A stretch of 64,000 nucleotides of DNA from contig NZ_BLWF01000001.1 of NCBI RefSeq assembly GCF_013167955.1, positions 744,001 through 808,000 of the forward strand, written 5' to 3'. Of the stretch, positions 50,014 through 60,206 are shown one piece after another; position 1 is the stretch's first letter, and each line of letters opens with the position of its first letter. Under the pieces are notes generated by a model that had not been told where the DNA came from, searched no databases, and saw only the letters and a program-made list of their open reading frames with translations. The translations under genes and the position numbers were made by a program. Source of the stretch: Thermanaeromonas sp. C210. Lineage in GTDB: Bacteria > Bacillota > DSM-521 > Neomoorellales > Neomoorellaceae.

Positions 50014-50130
50014 CTACAGCCCCAACCTATGGGCCAGCAGGACAAGGACTTCCTTCTCGTAGCGGTAGAAGTTGCTTTCGCTTATGCCTAACTCCTGGGC
50101 CACCCTCCAGGGTGGTAAACCGTCGAAGAA
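50014..50130 (-). pseudogene. HTH gene fragment
   Basis: On the minus strand, FDGLPPWRVAQELGISES followed by NFYRYEKEVLVLLAHRLGL then TAG at 50014. It has phage-type helix-turn-helix character but no start. It overlaps the 3' end of the XRE gene in another frame, suggesting a deletion or frameshift fusing them. Confidence 0.35.
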
Positions 50131-50351
50131 GTGCAGTTATCCACCAGCACCGGCCGGCCGGTGGCTTCGTCACAGATTTCGGAGACGGGAACACCAAAAA
50201 ACTCAGCAGTTTTTTTGCGGTAGTGTGGCGGAATATAGTTCTGGCCTCTTTCCATGCGGCAGTACCAGGTTTCGTTAAGGCCGATTTGAGCGGCCATATA
50301 TTTGAGGGTCAACCCTTTCCGCACCCGTAGGAGCCTAAGGTTAGTGACCAT
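50088..50351 (-). CDS. XRE-family transcriptional regulator
   Basis: 87 residues from ATG 50351 (AAAGGAGGGC seven bases upstream). The HTH LRLLRVRKGLTLKYMAAQIGL, followed by NETWYCRMERGQNYIPP, is a Cro/CI-type domain. The last 25 codons overlap an HTH fragment in another frame, so the natural C-terminus may be lost. Probable repressor of the island; divergent from the gene at 50478. Confidence 0.7.
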   Translation of the reverse strand: MVTNLRLLRVRKGLTLKYMAAQIGLNETWYCRMERGQNYIPPHYRKKTAEFFGVPVSEICDEATGRPVLVDNCTSSTVYHPGGWPRS

Positions 50352-50477
50352 AGAAGCCCTCCTTTCGTTTTGCTCAATGCTATGATAAACTTGGTGCAGA
50401 GAAAATCTTCGTGCGACATTTCGTGCGACAGGGAGGTATCGGATTGCCCACGCCAGCGGGTTCAGGTTTGGCTTCCC

Positions 50478-50927
50478 ATGTTCGAGCTAAGCCCCCTTAA
50501 TGCCGCTTATGCCCGTGATTTACAGCGAGCACAAAAAGAGTGGCGAGGCGAGCCTGTTATTTGGCTGCTCCCTGATATGAAGGAGGTCAAGCGTTGGTAC
50601 TGGGATTTTCGGAGGTTTAGACTTTGGGAATGCGCAGTGCCCAGCGAAACGATAAACCGGATTCTTGTCCTCCATGTAACCGAAGAGGGGTTTTGCTACC
50701 CTCCTGTTGAGATAGGGCTGTCCCAGTCCTGGGAAGGGAAAATACCTGAGGATCTTTTCCGAAAGTGGCTGAATGTGGGCCGGGTGTCTCTAGTGCCTGG
50801 CTGCAGAGAAATCAAGATAACGAGGCCGGTTTTTGAAGGCGACAGGGTGAGTTATGAAGAAAGGCTTTTGGAGGTAGAGCCAGGGCAGGTTATGCCTATT
50901 GTGTCGCTAGTTGAAAATACGAGGTAG
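50478..50927 (+). CDS. Hypothetical island protein
   Basis: 149 residues from ATG 50478 (weak AGGTTTGG upstream); an earlier in-frame ATG at 50370 overlaps a likely promoter region. Sequence features include WLLPDMKEVKRWYWDFRRFR and ILVLHVTEEGFCYPPVEIGLSQSW. No family is recognised. It is divergent from the XRE regulator, which may control it. AT-richer than the core genes. Confidence 0.45.
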   Translation: MFELSPLNAAYARDLQRAQKEWRGEPVIWLLPDMKEVKRWYWDFRRFRLWECAVPSETINRILVLHVTEEGFCYPPVEIGLSQSWEGKIPEDLFRKWLNVGRVSLVPGCREIKITRPVFEGDRVSYEERLLEVEPGQVMPIVSLVENTR

Positions 50928-51275
50928 ATTACTTTCGCCTGGCCGCCACCTGGAAGCCATCTTCCGCCGCCGGTTAGCCCGGAAACCGAGAGCCAAGAAA
51001 TATGCGGGCCAGTTGTTTGGGAAGAAAACCCGTTGTCGCCTGAGCTTCCTACCGCTTTAGACCGCTCGGGCAATAGAAGCCTGAATGTTTTGCTGCAGTG
51101 GCCGGAACCGAAGCAGGAGGGCAGAGGACAAGCGGAAGGAGAGGGAGAGGCAGAAGCTGAAAGTCTTTTTAAAAAACTCTCCCACTTGAGCAGGATTTTG
51201 CCCACAGAAAAGCTAAAACTTACTTAACCAAGGCATACTATGTAAGGGCTGGAATGCGTCTTAGGAGGGAAGAAC
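50928..51275. other. Gene-poor stretch in the island
   Basis: No gene with coding support. It contains the 17-mer CTTGAGCAGGATTTTGC at 51185-51201, repeated exactly at 51958-51974 after hicA. An ORF at 51033-51227 is compositionally odd (EGRGQAEGEGEAEAE) and has no ribosome site. Confidence 0.4.
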
Positions 51276-51485
51276 ATGGCCCGCTTCATTGTCTACCTCG
51301 AACCCGCCGAGGAAGGAGGCTATATCGCTTCTGTACCGGCACTACCGGGTTGCGTCACCCAAGGGGAAACTAAGGAAGAAGCTTTGGCAATGGCCGAGGA
51401 CGCCATAAGAGGGTACATCGAGAGCTTAAAAAACATGGGGAGCCGCTACCCTTTGGCTTTTGGAAGAGCAGAAAAGAACGTCTAG
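51276..51485 (+). CDS. HicB-like antitoxin, partnerless
   Basis: 69 residues from ATG 51276 (GGAGGGAAG upstream). FIVYLEPAEEGGYIASVPALPGCVTQGETKEEALAMAEDAI is a HicB N-terminal RNase-H-like fold. No HTH/RHH tail follows, and no hicA is directly adjacent; the next gene is a second HicB. Probably an orphan from the HicAB family. Confidence 0.7.
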   Translation: MARFIVYLEPAEEGGYIASVPALPGCVTQGETKEEALAMAEDAIRGYIESLKNMGSRYPLAFGRAEKNV

Positions 51486-51504
51486 TCTAGGGAGGTATAG
51501 CAAT

Positions 51505-51735
51505 ATGCTTTACCGCTACAAAGTTATCCTAGAGTGGGACGAGGAAGGTAAGGGGTATGTTGTTTCCGTGCCCGCCTTGCCCGGATGTTTCACCCAAGGA
51601 GACACCGTTGAAGAAGCCCTGGAGAGGGTAAAAGAGGCTATAGCGGGCCACCTTGCGGCTTTAGCTCAAGAAGGTTTACCCCTGCCTACTAAAGACGTTG
51701 AAATAGCTGAAGTGCAGGTAGAGATAGCCTCATGA
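51505..51735 (+). CDS. hicB: HicB antitoxin
   Basis: 76 residues from ATG 51505 (GGGAGGT upstream). YKVILEWDEEGKGYVVSVPALPGCFTQGDTVEEALERVKEAI is the HicB core. It overlaps hicA by four bases (ATGA). Functions as the antitoxin and probably as transcriptional repressor via another domain or partner. Confidence 0.82.
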   Translation: MLYRYKVILEWDEEGKGYVVSVPALPGCFTQGDTVEEALERVKEAIAGHLAALAQEGLPLPTKDVEIAEVQVEIAS

Positions 51736-51962
51736 GCAGGCTGCCCAGGGTTACAGGTAAAGAAGTAGTCAGTGCGTTGAAGAAGGCTGGCTTTGTGGTG
51801 GTAAGAATACAGGGTAGCCACCACCATTTGCGGAAGCCGGGTGCTAAAAGTCTGGTTACTGTTCCTGTACATTCTGGTGAAATCCTAAAGCCGAAGCTTT
51901 TGAAGAGCATACTGGAGCAGGCCGGACTAACCGTTGAGGAGTTCAAAAACCTTCTTGCTTGA
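51732..51962 (+). CDS. hicA: HicA mRNA interferase toxin
   Basis: 76 residues from ATG 51732. LPRVTGKEVVSALKKAGFVVVRIQGSHHHLRKPG is the dsRBD-like HicA fold with the catalytic His in GSHHHL. It appears intact. It matches the minus-strand copy at 52396-52626 closely at the N-terminus, so the two are paralogues. Confidence 0.85.
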   Translation: MSRLPRVTGKEVVSALKKAGFVVVRIQGSHHHLRKPGAKSLVTVPVHSGEILKPKLLKSILEQAGLTVEEFKNLLA

Positions 51963-52100
51963 GCAGGATTTTGCGAAAATGTAGCGAGAATCTGATGGAG
52001 AGAGGCTAATCCGGTGGTGCCGGCAGGAGGGCCGAAACCGGAGGTTGGAGGCAAGGAAACGCAAGGCCTCCAGCGGTGGGCTTCAGTGGCCTGCAATGCT

Positions 52101-52310
52101 GGACGCAAAATCCGGTGGGGCTCACACCCCGTGCGGGTTCGACTCCCGCCTTCGGCACCAGTTGGAAAATCAAGGGTTCACGGGTTCGGGCAAATCTTCC
52201 AGAGGCACTTTAAAACCGTGAATCCGTTCCCGATGAAAAGCCTCCTACCGGCCAAAACGGGAAGGAGGTTTTAAGTTTTTATGCGGGTTGTAAGGCTTAA
52301 CCCAGTACCA
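52101..52310 (+). repeat. Right direct repeat: tRNA-Leu 3' half plus integrase start
   Basis: GGACGCAAAATCC through CGGCACCA (52101-52160) repeats tRNA-Leu from the anticodon loop on, with one change, and continues to 52310 into integrase codons (VVRLNPVP). The 5' half of the tRNA is absent, so it is an att remnant, not a gene. The following 80 bases show no gene. Confidence 0.8.
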
Positions 52311-52395
52311 AAGGTCTGGCAGCACACTAACCCTCCCGTCCGTTTTTCGCCACTTGTACAGGTTTCTAGAAAGCGTTTCTCCCCTCGTGGCATTG

Positions 52396-52626
52396 CTATA
52401 ACAGCTCCCTTAGCTCTTCTGGCGATAGCCTGGTACTTTTCAAAATGGCGCTGACCACCTTAGGCGATAGCGTCTCCTTACCGTGTACCGGCACTGTGGC
52501 CCAGCGGCTTGGATCTTGTAGGTGGCTCAGGAAGTGGTGGCTTCCCTGAATACGTATCACAACGAATCCGGCTCGCTGTAAGGCCCGTAGCATCTCTTTT
52601 CCTGTGACCCGCGGAAGCCTGCTCAA
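52396..52626 (-). CDS. hicA: HicA mRNA interferase toxin, second copy
   Basis: 76 residues. LPRVTGKEMLRALQRAGFVVIRIQGSHHFL parallels the first HicA and keeps the catalytic His. Its ATG overlaps the stop of the adjacent hicB (ATGA). It lies just outside the right att repeat in opposite orientation to the first pair. Confidence 0.85.
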   Translation of the reverse strand: MSRLPRVTGKEMLRALQRAGFVVIRIQGSHHFLSHLQDPSRWATVPVHGKETLSPKVVSAILKSTRLSPEELRELL

Positions 52627-52847
52627 GCCGGTATCACCACTTCGGCTATCGAAATATCTACATCACCCGAAGGAACCGGCTGGCCCGTGACCTTGAGGCC
52701 TTCTACGGTCACGGCAATAGCTTCTTTTACTCGTTCTAGGGCCTCCTCCCGTGTCCTTCCCTGGGTGGCACATCCCGGCAGGGCCGGAACAGTAGCCACG
52801 TAAACACCTGTTTCCTCATCCCATTCCAATATTACCTTAAAGCGCAT
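52623..52847 (-). CDS. hicB: HicB antitoxin, second copy
   Basis: 74 residues from ATG 52847 (GGGAGG about nine bases upstream; ATG 52856 is too close to that site). FKVILEWDEETGVYVATVPALPGCATQGRTREEALERVKEAI matches the first HicB. It partners the overlapping HicA. Confidence 0.85.
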   Translation of the reverse strand: MRFKVILEWDEETGVYVATVPALPGCATQGRTREEALERVKEAIAVTVEGLKVTGQPVPSGDVDISIAEVVIPA

Positions 52848-52996
52848 TGGTCTCATTCCTCCCTGCTCTTAGCATTCCAATTATCATCCGGCAACATATA
52901 GCCTTTGGCAGTTAACAAGCTTGCAATGGTCACTTACTCCTTGGGTACAATTTTACCACAACCAGTGGGCAACATAGGGGGTTTCGCGCGAAATAG

Positions 52997-53248
52997 TTAC
53001 CCGGACGCGTGGCTGTAGGCGAAATCTATTAGCCTGCCGCGGTAAAACCTGCCGGCCTTGTCAAGGAAGAAGTGATACCCGATGCCTGTCCATCGGGTGC
53101 CGTCGGGCTCTACGCTGTCTAAATGCCACTGGTGGACATCGTATACCGTACACCGGCTGGCGGCCGCGTGGTGCAGGACGATGTATTCGGTACTGCTCCG
53201 GCGGGCCGGTTTGTCACGGAAGGCCAGGTGGGTCTCGATGATACGCAT
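52997..53248 (-). pseudogene. N-acetylmuramoyl-L-alanine amidase, truncated
   Basis: From ATG 53248, about 83 residues: YIVLHHAAASRCTVYDVHQWHL and WTGIGYHFFLDKAGRFYRGR, the amidase_2/PGRP fold with zinc His residues. It stops at AYSHASG, where the family continues through the last His/Cys ligand. It is a phage- or sporulation-type amidase fragment, probably inactive. Confidence 0.65.
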
Positions 53249-53276
53249 AGAGCCCACAATCCTTTGCGGGAGGGAC

Positions 53277-53303
53277 TAAAGTCCGCGGGACCGCTGTCGA
53301 TAT
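53277..53303 (+). promoter_or_regulatory. Sigma-28 (SigD/FliA) promoter of csrA-flagellin
   Basis: TAAA (53277-53280), exactly 15 bases, then GTCGATAT (53296-53303), matching consensus TAAA-N15-GCCGATAA with one or two changes. GGACT-AA-AGTCC overlaps the -35 as a palindrome. csrA starts 60 bases downstream. Confidence 0.75.
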
Positions 53304-53362
53304 GTTGAAGTGAAGGCACAGCAGGGAGGCGGAATCACTACCAGGGAGGGAGGTGGGAGGAG

Positions 53363-53551
53363 GTGCTTATAATAACCCGTAAGGAGGGCCAGTCCATCAT
53401 GATAGACGGCCGCATACGGGTGAAGATAGTCGAGGTAATCGGCAATTATGTCCGGGTCGGCATCGAGGCGCCGGAGGAGGTGCCCGTGAAGCGGGCTGAA
53501 CTTCTGGAGGGCGCGTGGCCGGCCTCACAGGGCGGGAATGAAGCGGCCTGA
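53363..53551 (+). CDS. csrA: Carbon storage regulator CsrA
   Basis: 62 residues from GTG 53363 (GGGAGGAGG upstream). LIITRKEGQSIMID and VRVGIEAPEEVPVKRAELLE match CsrA, including the RNA-contacting Leu4 and the VPVxR Arg. In Firmicutes CsrA represses flagellin translation and is antagonised by FliW; no fliW is seen beside it. It precedes flagellin by 137 bases on the same strand. Confidence 0.9.
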   Translation: MLIITRKEGQSIMIDGRIRVKIVEVIGNYVRVGIEAPEEVPVKRAELLEGAWPASQGGNEAA

Positions 53552-53613
53552 TACCCGCTCGCAGCAGCTCTAATGAAGTTAACTAATCACAAGGAGGTGG
53601 ATTTCGGCTTCCC

Positions 53614-53688
53614 GGCAGGTTACCACCTGCCCTCCGCTGGAAGCGGCAAGGGAAATAGACAGGGCTTCCCAGGGAAGCCGGAGAAGGT
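53614..53688 (+). promoter_or_regulatory. Flagellin leader with hairpins and GGA motifs
   Basis: GGCAGGT/ACCTGCC (53614-53620 with 53625-53631) and GGCTTC/GAAGCC (53663-53668 with 53674-53679, loop CCAGG) precede the ribosome site GGAGAAGG (53680-53687). GGA-containing loops next to a start are the usual CsrA targets. The CsrA site is inferred. Confidence 0.5.
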
Positions 53689-54954
53689 ATGAGGATTAAC
53701 CACAATATCTCGGCGTTAAACACCTATCGTCAGTTGTCAATTAACAACATGATGGCGGCTAAGTCGTTGGAGAAATTGTCGTCAGGCCTCCGTATCAACC
53801 GGGCTGGGGATGATGCTGCAGGCTTGGCCATCAGCGAGAAGATGCGGGCCCAGATTCGCGGACTGGAGATGGCGTCTAAGAATGCGCAGGATGCTATCTC
53901 GCTGATTCAAACGGCTGAGGGCGCACTAAACGAAACCCACTCCATCCTGCAGCGGATGCGGGAGCTGGCCGTCCAATCCGCCAGCGATACGAATACCGCC
54001 GTTGACCGGTCGGAAATACAGAAAGAAATAGATCAGCTTGCACAAGAACTTGCCCGGATTGGCAATACTACCGAATTCAACACCCAAAAACTCTTGAATG
54101 GCACTTTCAAGGGAACCTTCCACATCGGCGCCAACGAGAACCAGAACCTTTCACTGGAGATAAAGGATATGAGAGGATTCGCCCTGGGTGTAGTAGGTGA
54201 TGTGACCTATACTGCTACTGGAACGGTTACTAATACAAACAGCAGCTTTAGCGATGGCACCTACACGGTGAAATACGATTCAGCAAGTGGTAAATATCAG
54301 CTTGTTGACAGCAACGGTTTAGTAATCGCCACAAGTGCGGATGGTAAGACGTATACTGCCACAGCTGACGCCACCAGTACCGATAAGATTGTCTTCAGCG
54401 ATAAAGTCATCAGCGGCACTATTACCATTGACACGACCAGCAATGAAGCCACTGGTACCGCCACGGTGGACAACAAGCGTCTGGAAGCTGGAACGTACAC
54501 TTTGGATGCAGCAAACAAGAAACTGATAGATTCTACTGGCCAGGTTATAGGCACATCTACGGACGGGACGAAATATGTGGATGCGGCTGGAAACGAGCTA
54601 TTCACTTTGGGTGCGGCTCCTACTGAGAATATCACGCTTGAAGTAAAGGGTATCGATGTGTCCAGTGCGTCCTCGGCCAACAACGCAATTACTACCATTA
54701 ACAAGGCCATTGAAACCGTTTCGGCAGAACGGTCCAAACTCGGTGCCTACCAGAACCGTCTCGAGCACACTATCAACAACCTCGGCACCGCTGCTGAAAA
54801 CCTAACCGCAGCCGAATCCCGCATCCGCGACGTGGACATGGCCAAGGAAATGATGGAGTTCACCAAGCTGAACATTCTCCAGCAGGCCGCTACGGCTATG
54901 CTTGCCCAGGCCAACATGCAGCCGCAGATGGTGCTGCAGCTCCTGGGCAGGTAA
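53689..54954 (+). CDS. Flagellin
   Basis: 421 residues. The conserved N-terminus (RINHNISALNTYRQLSINN) and C-terminus (ITTINKAIETVSAERSKLGAY, AESRIRDVDMAKEMMEFTKLN, NMQPQMVLQLLGR) form the D0/D1 core. Residues about 175-330 are a variable surface domain, with two related beta units (GTYTVKYDS, GTYTLDAA) and abundant Ser/Thr. Secreted by the flagellar export system without a cleaved signal. It lies downstream of csrA under a sigma-28 promoter. Confidence 0.95.
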   Translation: MRINHNISALNTYRQLSINNMMAAKSLEKLSSGLRINRAGDDAAGLAISEKMRAQIRGLEMASKNAQDAISLIQTAEGALNETHSILQRMRELAVQSASDTNTAVDRSEIQKEIDQLAQELARIGNTTEFNTQKLLNGTFKGTFHIGANENQNLSLEIKDMRGFALGVVGDVTYTATGTVTNTNSSFSDGTYTVKYDSASGKYQLVDSNGLVIATSADGKTYTATADATSTDKIVFSDKVISGTITIDTTSNEATGTATVDNKRLEAGTYTLDAANKKLIDSTGQVIGTSTDGTKYVDAAGNELFTLGAAPTENITLEVKGIDVSSASSANNAITTINKAIETVSAERSKLGAYQNRLEHTINNLGTAAENLTAAESRIRDVDMAKEMMEFTKLNILQQAATAMLAQANMQPQMVLQLLGR

Positions 54955-54971
54955 ACTGGAGCAGTCACGGC

Positions 54972-55005
54972 AGGCCTCCCGCAAGCCGGGAGGCCTTTGC
55001 ATTTT
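54972..55005 (+). terminator. Terminator after flagellin
   Basis: AGGCCTCCC (54972-54980) pairs with GGGAGGCCT (54988-54996), followed by TTGCATTTT. Confidence 0.85.
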
Positions 55006-55012
55006 CCGGCAC

Positions 55013-55310
55013 CTACAGCCTCCCTTCCACCTGCTCCCTGATTACCTTGCTCAGCAGCACCCGGCCGCCAGGGAAGTGCACCTCCACTTCCATCAGCAGG
55101 CCCGGCGCGGCAGGGTCCTCGGCCGTGGCCACGTACCTCACCACTCGTCCTTCGGCAAAGGTGCATAACCTTTACACCCTTTGCCCGCTGAGGGGATCAC
55201 CAGCCTGGCCTCAGCGACGGCCGTTAGGTCCACTAGCCGGCCTTCTTCGTCCGTAAGCGTAAACACCTGTTCGACTCCTGGGCTGGCCTCCTTCGCTGCT
55301 CTTGCCGCCT
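55013..55310 (-). pseudogene. Frameshifted unknown gene after flagellin
   Basis: On the minus strand the upstream part reads EQVFTLTDEEGRLVDLTAVAEARLVIPS, and after a single-base shift near GKGCK (about 55175) it reads FAEGRVVRYVATAEDPAAPGLLMEVEVHFPGGRVLLSKVIREQVEGRL then TAG at 55013. Codon character is clear in both parts, but no family is recognised. It may be a pseudogene or contain a read error. No start codon was fixed. Confidence 0.45.
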
Positions 55311-55319
55311 GCCTTTAAG

Positions 55320-55646
55320 CGGGAGTTCAAATACTCCCCACAGTTATCGGAGCGACTTCGCAGAAGAACCACATCCCTGTCTCTGACTATGAGCTAATGG
55401 CCTGGCGGAAGGGTTAAATCCTACTCACATGTGAAATAGGGTACAACGACGGAGTGGGAACGGAGGAAAATAAAGGAATCGCGGACTAGGTCTCGTTAAG
55501 TGGAATTTAAATCCGGTCCCGCGATGTACATTTCCCAGGGGGGACTTGCCGGTCAGCGCATGGGGAAAGCAGCCGGTCCCCAAGCGTTTTGCTGTGGATT
55601 TAGGTGATGAAATTTACGTGGCCCCTCTTCCTTTACCAAGTGGGAC
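55320..55646. other. Gene-poor stretch upstream of the flagellin fossil
   Basis: No gene with good support. A coding-like tail (AVDLGDEIYVAPLPLPSGT, ending TAA at about 55650) has no start. An inverted repeat ATCGCGG/CCGCGAT occurs at about 55477-55524. GGGAGTTCAAATACTCCC at about 55320 resembles a tRNA T-arm but has an eight-base loop. Confidence 0.3.
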
Positions 55647-55673
55647 TTAAGTCCGTAGGACCTTGGTCGATAA
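55647..55673 (+). promoter_or_regulatory. Sigma-28 promoter of the decayed flagellin
   Basis: TTAA (55647-55650), exactly 15 bases, then GTCGATAA (55666-55673). The flanking GGACTTAAGTCC and GGACC parallel the csrA promoter at 53277. It precedes the flagellin fossil by about 60 bases. Confidence 0.65.
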
Positions 55674-55732
55674 TAGCAAATGAAGGCCTTATCGGAAAGC
55701 TAAAACATTGCCAGGGAGGAAAGGCGAGGAGC

Positions 55733-55953
55733 ATCCGGTGTACTAAACTGCGCCCTTAACCGAACGGGGAACTCGCCATAAATGACCTCGGTACCGCCTT
55801 CGAAAACTTCTGCAGCACCGCGTATCGCATAGGGAAGTTTATAGGCGGTGGAGACGAAGGAGTTCACCAAGCGAATATTTGCGGCAGGCCGCCACAACCG
55901 TGTTAGCCCGGACCAACCTGCAGCTGCAGGTGATGCTAGGGCTCCTAGGCCGA
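55733..55953 (+). pseudogene. Flagellin fossil (C-terminal part)
   Basis: Aligning by eye to the intact flagellin: INDLGTAFENF matches INNLGTAAENL; then, after frame changes, FTK and LRQAATTVLARTNLQLQVMLGLLGR match LQQAATAMLAQANMQPQMVLQLLGR. The N-terminal and central parts are deleted, and several stops break the rest. Together with the promoter it shows a former second flagellin gene. Confidence 0.75.
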
Positions 55954-56051
55954 AAAGCTGAAAAGACCGTGAGAGCCCTGGAACCGATGACGTTTTTTCT
56001 ATTCCTTTGGGCAGCATTGAGTGTCCCTAATGAACCTTTTCAGAAAAAGGG

Positions 56052-57473
56052 GTGGCGCTGTTACCTGAAGAGTGTATTGTATGCGAGTTTTGTTTTCATG
56101 GAGTAGGGCACGGGCTTTTCTACACCGGCAAAATCGGCGACTTCAGTTTTGTCTACGACTGCGGAAGCAGTTCACAGCGTAAGATTTTTGCGAAGGCTAA
56201 AAAGTTTGTGCGAAAGCATCTTCCTGAAGTAGCGGAACAGGACAGAAGAGTAAAGGTGCTACCTTTTCTTTTCATTTCTCATCTCCATTATGACCATGTT
56301 TCAGGCTTGGAAGGGCTTCTTAAGGCAGGAGTGAGGGTGGATTATGCTTTCCTACCGTACCTATCTCCGTGGGAGAGATTACTACTTGCCTTGGTATTAC
56401 CTCAAGGCATTTACCAGTCCTCACGTTGGTACTTGGACTTGTTATATGACCCCGTAGGTTTTCTAATGGAGCAGGGTGTCAAGAAAGTGATTCTATTAAC
56501 TAGTAGAGGTTCCGGTCGGACGGGACGTCCTCTTCAATATGACCCCGTAAACATTGAGGGTTTGCCCGGATACCATGTTTACTTAAAGGGCTTAGAGCCA
56601 TTGGACGAGACCATGGAAAGGAGTATTCTTTCCGAAGAGGATAGTTCCTGGAAAGATTATCGTACGGACGGACGGCTGTGGATTGGTGTACCTACTCCGA
56701 ACTCCAATGAAGTCAGAGGACCGGTGCTGTGGGAGTTTGTCCTTTACTGCGTTCCTATGTCTGAGAATGAGATTGCCTGCTTTAGGGAGTGGGTAGCAAA
56801 GCAGCCTAGTGTTAGGTTAGTTCTCGGGCAACGTGGAGATACTGCCTTGGCACTTCTTTCTGATCCATTTCTTTTGCAGAAGCTGAGGAAGCGCTACAGC
56901 AAGTTATTACCAAAAGGAGAAAATTTAAATTTCACCTCATTGCTCCTTTGGCACGCCCCACTGATGGAAAATATATCAGCGATGGAAGCAGGGCACTGCT
57001 TGGACTATGGTGGTATCCATGGAAGTTTATACAAAACGCTTGTAGAATGTTGCCCGCAGGACACCTGGTGCGCTTTCCTAAAGCTACTTGGTTGGGAAAA
57101 TAAGTTAGGGCAGTTTCTCCTTGGGGACTTGAACTATCGGCAGTTGGTTAAAGATGGGGGAATGTACAACCAATTCCGCCAGCACTTTGGCGACAGGCTG
57201 AATGCTACCATGGTCTGCCTTTTGCCTCATCACGGTTCAAGAAGGAATTGGGATAGACAGATTCTGGAGGACATGGGGTCGGCAAAGTTTTGGGTGGCGT
57301 CGGCCGAGAGAAGAAGGGGCGGCTACCCTCCTCATTGGGAGGTCATTGCTGATATCACTTCTGCAGGAAGGAGTTTCGTATGGGTTGGCGGTACCACTTC
57401 CGGCAACGTTAGCTGTGACACGTGTACTAACACTCCGCAGGACACGGACTACGTTGTTGTGTTCACCTTTTAG
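56052..57473 (+). CDS. MBL-fold metallo-hydrolase (ComEC-like domain)
   Basis: 473 residues from GTG 56052 (the only start after an in-frame stop; AAAAGGGG is directly adjacent, so the start is unsure). HLHYDH near residue 77 is the H-x-H-x-D-H metal motif; LPHHGSRRNWD and LLGDL near 395 and 350 complete the second half, as in ComEC C-terminal domains. AT-richer than flanks. No DNA-uptake channel is fused, so it is a stand-alone hydrolase of unknown substrate. It lies between the flagellin fossil and the glycosyltransferase. Confidence 0.7.
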   Translation: MALLPEECIVCEFCFHGVGHGLFYTGKIGDFSFVYDCGSSSQRKIFAKAKKFVRKHLPEVAEQDRRVKVLPFLFISHLHYDHVSGLEGLLKAGVRVDYAFLPYLSPWERLLLALVLPQGIYQSSRWYLDLLYDPVGFLMEQGVKKVILLTSRGSGRTGRPLQYDPVNIEGLPGYHVYLKGLEPLDETMERSILSEEDSSWKDYRTDGRLWIGVPTPNSNEVRGPVLWEFVLYCVPMSENEIACFREWVAKQPSVRLVLGQRGDTALALLSDPFLLQKLRKRYSKLLPKGENLNFTSLLLWHAPLMENISAMEAGHCLDYGGIHGSLYKTLVECCPQDTWCAFLKLLGWENKLGQFLLGDLNYRQLVKDGGMYNQFRQHFGDRLNATMVCLLPHHGSRRNWDRQILEDMGSAKFWVASAERRRGGYPPHWEVIADITSAGRSFVWVGGTTSGNVSCDTCTNTPQDTDYVVVFTF

Positions 57474-57665
57474 AAGACATAGGCCCCAGCAAACTCGCCT
57501 CTAACTCGAATTTTAATAGGTGGGTCTGGAGTGGAAATGGTTGGTTCATTTGAGAAATAACTTTGTTCTGATGTGCAGTGATATTTCGCAAGCCTGCCGG
57601 TTAGTTGCGAGTTAAAAAGTTTGGGTTTGCGTATGGCAAACCGGGCCGGGCAGGAGGTGAGATAA

Positions 57666-60206
57666 GTGCGGGTGAAAAACGTTAGAGGCCGTTTCCTTCT
57701 TCTTGACGGTACTGAGAAAGAAGGAAGAAAAATTATCCGGGAGGCGGGCCTGGGGGAAAGTGAGATTATATTTCCGTTATTTCCTGACGGTACCGGTTCG
57801 GGGCGCACTGTATGGTGGGCTAACGCGGCGTTCCATTTCAATCAACTTGTCTCTGCAGTCGCTAATGAGGACAAGGTTTTTTACTGGGGGCCGCGCCGCT
57901 TCCTGCGCCTTTTCTTACGGGAGGCCGCCGAGTGGGACGGGCATCAACCGCTCTTCTGGTCACACTGGGAGCGAGTCCGGGAAGAGGGTATGGTGAAGTT
58001 TTACGGGGCCCTCGGGGCCTGCCTTCCCGGAGAAGTACCTGTGGGGGTTCTCCCCACTCACCTCGGTAACAGGTTTTTCGAAGAGAGTCTTACAAGGGCC
58101 CTTGCTGAGGTGAACTGTAGTTTAGTGCGCTGCGGGAGGCCCTGGCCTACACCGGAGGAGGAACTCCGCACCCCCAAAGGAGCACAGAAGATCACACTGG
58201 CGATGATCGTCAAAGATGAGGAGGCGTTCCTTGCCGGGTGCCTGGAGCAGGCCCTTCCCTTTGTCGACGACATTGTGCTGGTCGACACCGGCTCCCAGGA
58301 CCGTACGGCCGAGGTTGCCGCAAGCTATGGGGCACGCCTCCTGCGCCACGAGTGGAACGTAGACTTCGCCGCGGCGCGCAACGCGTACCTTGAGGAGATA
58401 CGGGAGGGTTGGGTCCTCACCCTGGACGCCGATGAGTATCTGACCCCCGCGGCAGGAGCCTGCCTGCGGCGTTTGGCCGAGCGTGGGGAGCCGAAGGTAT
58501 ACTACCTCCGTACTTATAATTACCACAATGAGTTCCTGGCGCACTTTACCGACCAGGCGAACATAAGGCTTTTCTGGCGAGCTCCCGACGCCCGGTATGT
58601 GGGGGAGATTCACGAGCAACTGGTCACTTCGCTCCCGCGCGAGCTCGTGGGCGGCCCTTACGTTGTGCACTACGGTTATCTGCCGGGTGTAATGGGAAAG
58701 AAGCAGAAACGTTCTCGTAACCTTGAAATCCTGAGGCAAGTCACGGCAGAAAGGGAGTCTCCCTTTGACTGGTACAACTACGGTCTATCCCTTCTTGGCA
58801 GCGGGCAGGCGGCGGAGGCGTTAGAGGCCCTCGAGCATTACCTAAAGCTCGAGACGCCGGGGGCCGTCGAGAAGCGTCCTTCTGCCTTCTGGCATGCGGC
58901 GCGGGCGGCCCTGGCCTGCGGGAAGAGGGAACTCGCCCTCGAGTATGCCGAGAAGGCCTGCGAAGCCCCTCTGCCCGAGTGCCACTTTACCAGAGGGCAG
59001 GTCCTTGAAGCCTTGGGCCGTGTTGAGGAAGCCATTGGGGCTTACCGCACGGCTGCTTCCCTGCCCGATCCTCCGGCCAGCCTGTATCAGATATTTAACC
59101 AGACGGATACTTCCATCAAACTGTGGCGCGCTCGCCTAGCCGCAGCGTCCCTCCTGGAAAAGGGTAAGAGGTATGCAGAGGCCGAGCAGGAGTACAAGCA
59201 AGTCCTTGAAGGAGACTTCGCGAATGTCTTTGCCCTTATGGGTCTTGCTCGGGTAAAGCGCTTGCAGGGAAAGCTCCGCGAGGCCCTTAAGTGGGCCCGC
59301 CGGGGCGTTGACTATCTCCCGGATGCCCTCGAACCCCATCTCGAGTACCTGGAAGTGCTCTTGGCCCAGGGAGAGTTAGAAGCGGCACGGGAGCATGTTG
59401 CGGGGACGCGGCTTGCGCCTGCCCTGGAGGGCCGATTGTGGCTGCGCCTGGCGGGCAAAGCCGCGGAGGCCGGGGAGTGGACGGTCGCCTTGGAGGCGTC
59501 GCAGAAAGTCCTTGAGAACGAGCCAGATAGCACGGCTGCCCTTGTCCTCAAAGCGCGGGCTTTGAGGGGCTTGGGACGGCTGAAGGAGGCTGAAGAAGCA
59601 CTTCGGAATGTATCAGACCTGCCGGACGTCAGGAACGAGCGCGGCTGCATTGCTCTGGCCCAAACTAGACTTGATGAAGCGGAAGAGATTTTCCGCACAG
59701 TGCTGGCCGAAGACCCTGCGCATGCGGCGGCAGCCACCAACCTCGCCCAGGTTCTAGTTCTTCGCGGAAAGGTGGAAGAGGCCCTCGAAGTGTTGAGGCC
59801 TTTTGTTGATGGCGGCTCCCTGGACCAGAACCCGCGTTCTGCTCTCCTTGCGGCACGCTGCCTCAACGCCCTCGGGCAGTTTGAGGAGGCGCTTGCTCTT
59901 TTGAGTTTCTTGGAACCGGGGTCTCTCCCAAAGTCACTTCAGAGCGAGTTTTACTTAGTGAAAGGAAACTCTCTTTTTGGCCTGGAGGATTGGGAGAGAG
60001 CCGGGGAATGTTACTTTGAGGGATTCCGCATGAATCCCGAAGACCATGAACTCTTGATGCGAGTGGGTCTGCTGATGATCAAAGTAGAGCGGTGGGAAGA
60101 TGCAAAGAACGCCTTTACCCGGGTGCTCATGTTAGATCCCGGCAACAAAGAGGCTGCACAGTTCTTAGAGTTGGCTCAAGCAGCCGCTTGCATAGCGAAG
60201 AGGTGA
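57666..60206 (+). CDS. GT2 glycosyltransferase with TPR repeats
   Basis: 846 residues from GTG 57666 (GGAGGTGAG upstream). Residues 1-165 are an unrecognised N-terminal domain. Residues about 176-350 are GT2: TLAMIVKDEEAFLAGCLEQ, DDIVLVDTGSQDRTAEVA and LTLDADEYL near residue 255 with the DxD. From about 370 on there are tandem TPR units (for example AEQEYKQVLEGDFANVFALMGLARV). Such GT2-TPR proteins near flagellin often glycosylate the filament. The sugar is unknown. Confidence 0.8.
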   Translation: MRVKNVRGRFLLLDGTEKEGRKIIREAGLGESEIIFPLFPDGTGSGRTVWWANAAFHFNQLVSAVANEDKVFYWGPRRFLRLFLREAAEWDGHQPLFWSHWERVREEGMVKFYGALGACLPGEVPVGVLPTHLGNRFFEESLTRALAEVNCSLVRCGRPWPTPEEELRTPKGAQKITLAMIVKDEEAFLAGCLEQALPFVDDIVLVDTGSQDRTAEVAASYGARLLRHEWNVDFAAARNAYLEEIREGWVLTLDADEYLTPAAGACLRRLAERGEPKVYYLRTYNYHNEFLAHFTDQANIRLFWRAPDARYVGEIHEQLVTSLPRELVGGPYVVHYGYLPGVMGKKQKRSRNLEILRQVTAERESPFDWYNYGLSLLGSGQAAEALEALEHYLKLETPGAVEKRPSAFWHAARAALACGKRELALEYAEKACEAPLPECHFTRGQVLEALGRVEEAIGAYRTAASLPDPPASLYQIFNQTDTSIKLWRARLAAASLLEKGKRYAEAEQEYKQVLEGDFANVFALMGLARVKRLQGKLREALKWARRGVDYLPDALEPHLEYLEVLLAQGELEAAREHVAGTRLAPALEGRLWLRLAGKAAEAGEWTVALEASQKVLENEPDSTAALVLKARALRGLGRLKEAEEALRNVSDLPDVRNERGCIALAQTRLDEAEEIFRTVLAEDPAHAAAATNLAQVLVLRGKVEEALEVLRPFVDGGSLDQNPRSALLAARCLNALGQFEEALALLSFLEPGSLPKSLQSEFYLVKGNSLFGLEDWERAGECYFEGFRMNPEDHELLMRVGLLMIKVERWEDAKNAFTRVLMLDPGNKEAAQFLELAQAAACIAKR

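Follow-up and report, generated by a model that had tools for sequence, protein, structure and literature searches.

Closest described systems are the CsrA-FliW control of flagellin in csrA-hag operons of the Bacillus subtilis type (PMC6529632), the tandem flagellin paralogues fliC1-fliC3 of Stenotrophomonas maltophilia (PMC8998449) and flagellar glycosylation in Clostridium, with glycosyltransferase genes beside flagellin (PMC13317340). The locus described here lies in a window of 64,000 nucleotides, the whole stretch of DNA analysed, from Thermanaeromonas sp. C210. It shares with the Bacillus subtilis type csrA beside flagellin, FliW and FliA/SigD, and a promoter of the sigma-28 type. It differs in carrying a relic, very probably derived from such a unit, in which csrA and most of hag are lost and promoter, leader and tail are left. 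Tandem flagellin copies are common to this locus and fliC1-fliC3; here csrA forms part of the duplicated unit, of which one copy is dead. As in Clostridium, a glycosyltransferase (GT) gene is associated with flagellin, its orthologues in the relatives G010 and G011 following hag with a sigma-28-like promoter; the window GT (putative activity) differs in standing behind an MBL-fold hydrolase (MBL) gene and the relic promoter, with no sigma-28-like promoter of its own. Flagellin duplication and loss are known. Gene death with the promoter retained is a known kind of event. No description of the relic-promoter arrangement was found in the limited part of the literature covered; set against that part, a flagellar promoter joined to accessory genes by operon collapse would be a small, testable twist.

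The csrA-hag unit and its relic

The features, all on the + strand, are as follows.

53277–53303, +, sigma-28-like promoter of the intact csrA-hag operon, TAAAGTCC-N11-GTCGATAT (motif scan)
53363–53551, +, csrA, intact, GTG start (Pfam CsrA, 7.9e-19)
53689–54954, +, hag, the sole full flagellin gene found in the genome (Pfam Flagellin_N and Flagellin_C)
54972–54996, +, intrinsic terminator of intact hag (terminator scan)
55629–55731, +, relic copy of the csrA promoter and 5'UTR (67% to 53260–53362, E=5e-9)
55647–55673, +, intact sigma-28-like promoter, TTAAGTCC-N11-GTCGATAA, predicted start near 55680 (motif scan)
55732–55744, +, probable deletion junction, 13 nt where the intact unit has about 1,373 nt of csrA and hag
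55745–55960, +, remains of the 3' end of a second hag, broken by frameshifts and stops (67% to 54736–54958, E=2.5e-22)
56052–57473, +, MBL gene, the first intact gene 3' of the relic promoter (Pfam Lactamase_B; homologue after hag in the relative G004)
57666–60206, +, GT2-TPR glycosyltransferase gene (orthologues after hag in G010 and G011)

FliA/SigD is encoded in the genome (FliA_WhiG, 252.7 bits against a cut-off of 189.6), as is FliW. Two other genome matches to flagellin, at about 30% identity, resemble FlgL. Judged by its sequence, the strong terminator at 54972–54996 isolates intact hag. The hag leader (53590–53690) has strong predicted hairpin structure and AGGGA motifs, resembling a CsrA target, and is similar in G004 (L117:1998-2098). 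CCAGGGA is also present in the leaders of csrA, the relic and the G010 and G011 GT genes. Upstream, at 50088–53257, is what looks like a mobile region in decay, with several genes of HicA/HicB type and an N-acetylmuramoyl-L-alanine amidase fragment below threshold; in both the window and G004, HicB-like genes lie 5' of csrA.

The scar at 55629–55960 consists of two collinear, same-strand pieces of the csrA-hag operon (local alignment of 54998–56051 to the intact unit). The csrA-leader piece scores 63 against a maximum of 31 in 300 shuffles (55629–55731 to 53260–53362) and ends, at its 3' limit, at the csrA start codon. The hag-tail piece (55745–55960 to 54736–54958) scores 135, where the best of 300 shuffles reached 37.5, and spans the hag C-terminus and stop region. 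Matching residues of the tail are scattered over three frames with stop codons, so no flagellin is expected from the relic; N-terminus and centre are deleted. A csrA coding match is absent from 54998–56051 in the same alignment, which an internal deletion explains, the relic being a remnant and not a working copy. The tail thus combines significant flagellin similarity with disabling changes, as a flagellin pseudogene should; the scar as a whole, with csrA leader and hag sequence in order on one strand, has the make-up of a csrA-hag duplicate.

The preliminary description had proposed a decayed flagellin C-terminus behind a promoter nearly identical in architecture to that of csrA. The decayed C-terminus is borne out by the alignment to hag with its stops and frameshifts, and the likeness of the promoters proves to be homology, more than architecture. 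Similarity to the intact unit holds, both pieces lying above all shuffles. That a second flagellin gene once existed is supported; its scope is wider than proposed, a copy of the whole csrA-hag operon and not of flagellin alone. The relic also exceeds the bounds first given (55647–55953): homology begins about 18 bp earlier, includes the csrA 5'UTR and ends about 7 bp later.

No further copies of the scar were found in a search of the genome except hag itself, and no intact version of the relic in the 18 family genomes searched. Rfam gave for 52500–58000 two sub-threshold names only, taken as chance. Two conserved pieces lie in the gap 5' of the relic, possibly mobile-element remains: 55443–55510 (68 nt, 82% to L117:10624-10691 of G004) and 55518–55557 (40 nt, 95% to C120:896-935, another G004 contig).

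The order in G004 is csrA, hag, MBL, mobile-element-like genes, fliD-like fragments, rtcB (fliD and mobile-element names read from translations). MBL begins there 86 nt past hag and in the window about 92 nt past the end of the relic tail; the relic therefore occupies the slot held by hag in G004, and the intact csrA-hag unit lies upstream of it. Of the two csrA leaders, that of G004 is the nearer to the relic, with 72% identity against 61.5% for the window copy, while for the tail the window's hag is slightly the nearer. Since leader and tail point to different nearest copies and the sequence is short and decayed, a tree would probably not date the duplication.

Genes downstream of the relic

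The MBL gene was found in only 8 of 398 genomes of the phylum, with several copies broken, and lies in the flagellar region in all three family members that have it. Its stretch has a G+C content of about 45–51%, below that of surrounding genes. The five homologues outside the family lie in accessory regions, two of them adjoining an OLD/GajA-like ATPase, which makes a flagellar role doubtful. No match to the window Hag was found around these five by tblastn, a comparison that could miss linkage because a single flagellin was the query and two of the five stretches end at contig ends. In L176 (1890-5070) and L178 (6878-8932) the MBL homologues adjoin AAA/OLD-like ATPases (GajA, Old and AriA profiles), a pair that is possibly a two-gene defence-like module. 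Similarity of the window MBL to the defence-associated LmuA, RT-associated MBL and Avs1a profiles (PADLOC, NCBIfam) is weak and confined to short stretches: for Avs1a, 18.4 against 420 bits, far below the one curated cut-off available. It differs from the L176 and L178 homologues in having no adjoining ATPase partner. No significant match to solved structures and no match in phages was found; plasmids gave distant matches only, about 22–34% identical among the matches listed.

GT orthologues, 59–60% identical, are present after hag in G010 and G011, only these two of 18 family genomes. Each is preceded by its own TTAAGT-N13-GCCGATA, and the upstream regions of the two align well only from this promoter onwards. 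The motif scan found no sigma-28-like promoter in the region upstream of the window GT. The proximity of the orthologues to hag, together with their sigma-28-like promoters, places GT with the flagellar regulon in G010 and G011 and favours, on comparative grounds, its being a flagellin-linked glycosyltransferase, here possibly fed via MBL by the relic promoter.

The relic promoter and the competing explanations

The sigma-28 promoter with 15-base spacing named in the preliminary description is present at 55647–55673 (+). The spacer is 15, counted from TTAA to GTCGATAA, the score is 20, and the -35 and -10 elements are of the sigma-28 type. The score is among the top three in the 64 kb (both strands). 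A match to TAAAGT-N13-GNCGATA with at most one mismatch is expected about 0.001 times in 307 bp of one strand, as derived from 18 one-mismatch matches in the genome. With up to two mismatches allowed, the bare consensus is as common in the genome as its reversed control; the motif alone is therefore weak evidence, and homology carries the case. For the wider core GGACTWAAGTCC-N3-GGACC the genome gives two perfect matches and no more, one at csrA and one at the relic; the closest other site departs from it at two positions. Predicted flagellin promoters of the family keep the 15-nt spacing, and TTAAGT precedes hag in G001 as it does GT in G010 and G011. Overlapping palindromes, GGAC-N4-GTCC and GTCC-N3-GGAC, cover the -35 region at 53270–53292 and 55640–55662; the promoters of csrA in the window, csrA in G004 and the relic all retain them, and they may be a regulator site.

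The preferred reading, held at a probability of about 0.68 and weighted towards its structural part, is as follows. The csrA-hag operon would once have been present twice in tandem in the lineage. The MBL-proximal copy would have lost about 1.37 kb, comprising the csrA coding region, the hag leader and most of hag, in what looks like a single internal deletion; the leftover hag 3' end would then have decayed by frameshifts while the promoter stayed. SigD RNA polymerase would start near 55680 and continue across the dead tail into MBL and, probably, on into GT. MBL and GT would be co-expressed with the filament, and GT would glycosylate flagellin. The structural history of tandem unit, internal deletion and decay can be held with high confidence. 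Physiologically relevant read-through is a tentative proposal, put at somewhat under an even chance. No terminator-like site was found on the + strand at 54997–57665, which covers the relic promoter to MBL and MBL to GT; this and the sigma-28-like promoters of the GT orthologues make membership of MBL and GT in the flagellar regulon via the relic promoter, as put forward in the preliminary description, a plausible proposal. Against read-through stands the long untranslated leader of the relic transcript (predicted length 378 nt), open to Rho-type termination.

The same structural history followed by a promoter without present role is a serious competitor, itself rated a little below one in two. 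The promoter would be inactive, or its transcript would stop before MBL, MBL and GT would use other promoters, and the core would be intact by chance or for want of time. Conservation of the core by selection is suggestive and not significant: among sites identical in G004 and the intact window copy, the relic alone is changed at 1 of 12 in the promoter core and at 74 of 223 in the UTR and tail combined (Fisher P=0.11). The length of the untranslated leader, the accessory character of MBL and the strong terminator that parts hag from MBL in G004 (-41 kcal/mol, z=-4.5), where MBL need not depend on the hag promoter, all agree with loss of function. The lone core change argues the other way, TTAA being a form used by promoters of relatives, and a weak scan of the + strand ahead of MBL and GT gave no other promoter of the sigma-70 type.

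Origin of the relic from a stand-alone second flagellin gene with its own sigma-28 promoter, csrA not being involved, is disfavoured and carries a very small share of the weight. Several relatives do have a close sigma-28-like promoter of hag's own; the relic leader, however, matches csrA sequence from the promoter through the 5'UTR as far as the start codon, the extended core recurs within the genome at csrA alone, and the hag leader is absent.

Slightly less credible still, possible but unlikely, is a decoy for CsrA: a sigma-28-driven leader RNA whose GGA motifs bind CsrA and so loosen its control of flagellin. Four GGA motifs lie within 81 nt of the predicted transcript start; the examined stretch of the csrA leader has six. 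These are, however, the ordinary csrA ribosome-binding region, a shared hairpin array is lacking, and FliW, the usual antagonist of CsrA, is present. Chance similarity with no duplication, to which the commonness of the bare consensus might lend itself, is refuted by how far each of the two pieces, collinear on one strand, stands out in shuffling and by E-value, and by the extended core unique to csrA and relic.

Meaning for the flagellar region

On the preferred reading of tandem duplication, internal deletion and decay, the relic documents the birth and death of a flagellin operon, its promoter being the best-kept survivor. A flagellin N-terminal fossil is present in G004 (L117:10190-10262) between the fliD-like fragments and rtcB, with a score of 61, the best of 500 shuffles reaching 39. 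This is a second lineage with a dead flagellin piece, so flagellin turnover in the region may be recurrent. Promoter capture by operon collapse, whereby a flagellin promoter would now drive accessory hydrolase and glycosyltransferase genes and a possible defence-type MBL would come under flagellar control, is rather unlikely. The relic reminds annotators that a seemingly empty gap can conceal a promoter, and it offers one cheap test of whether gene death rewires a regulon.
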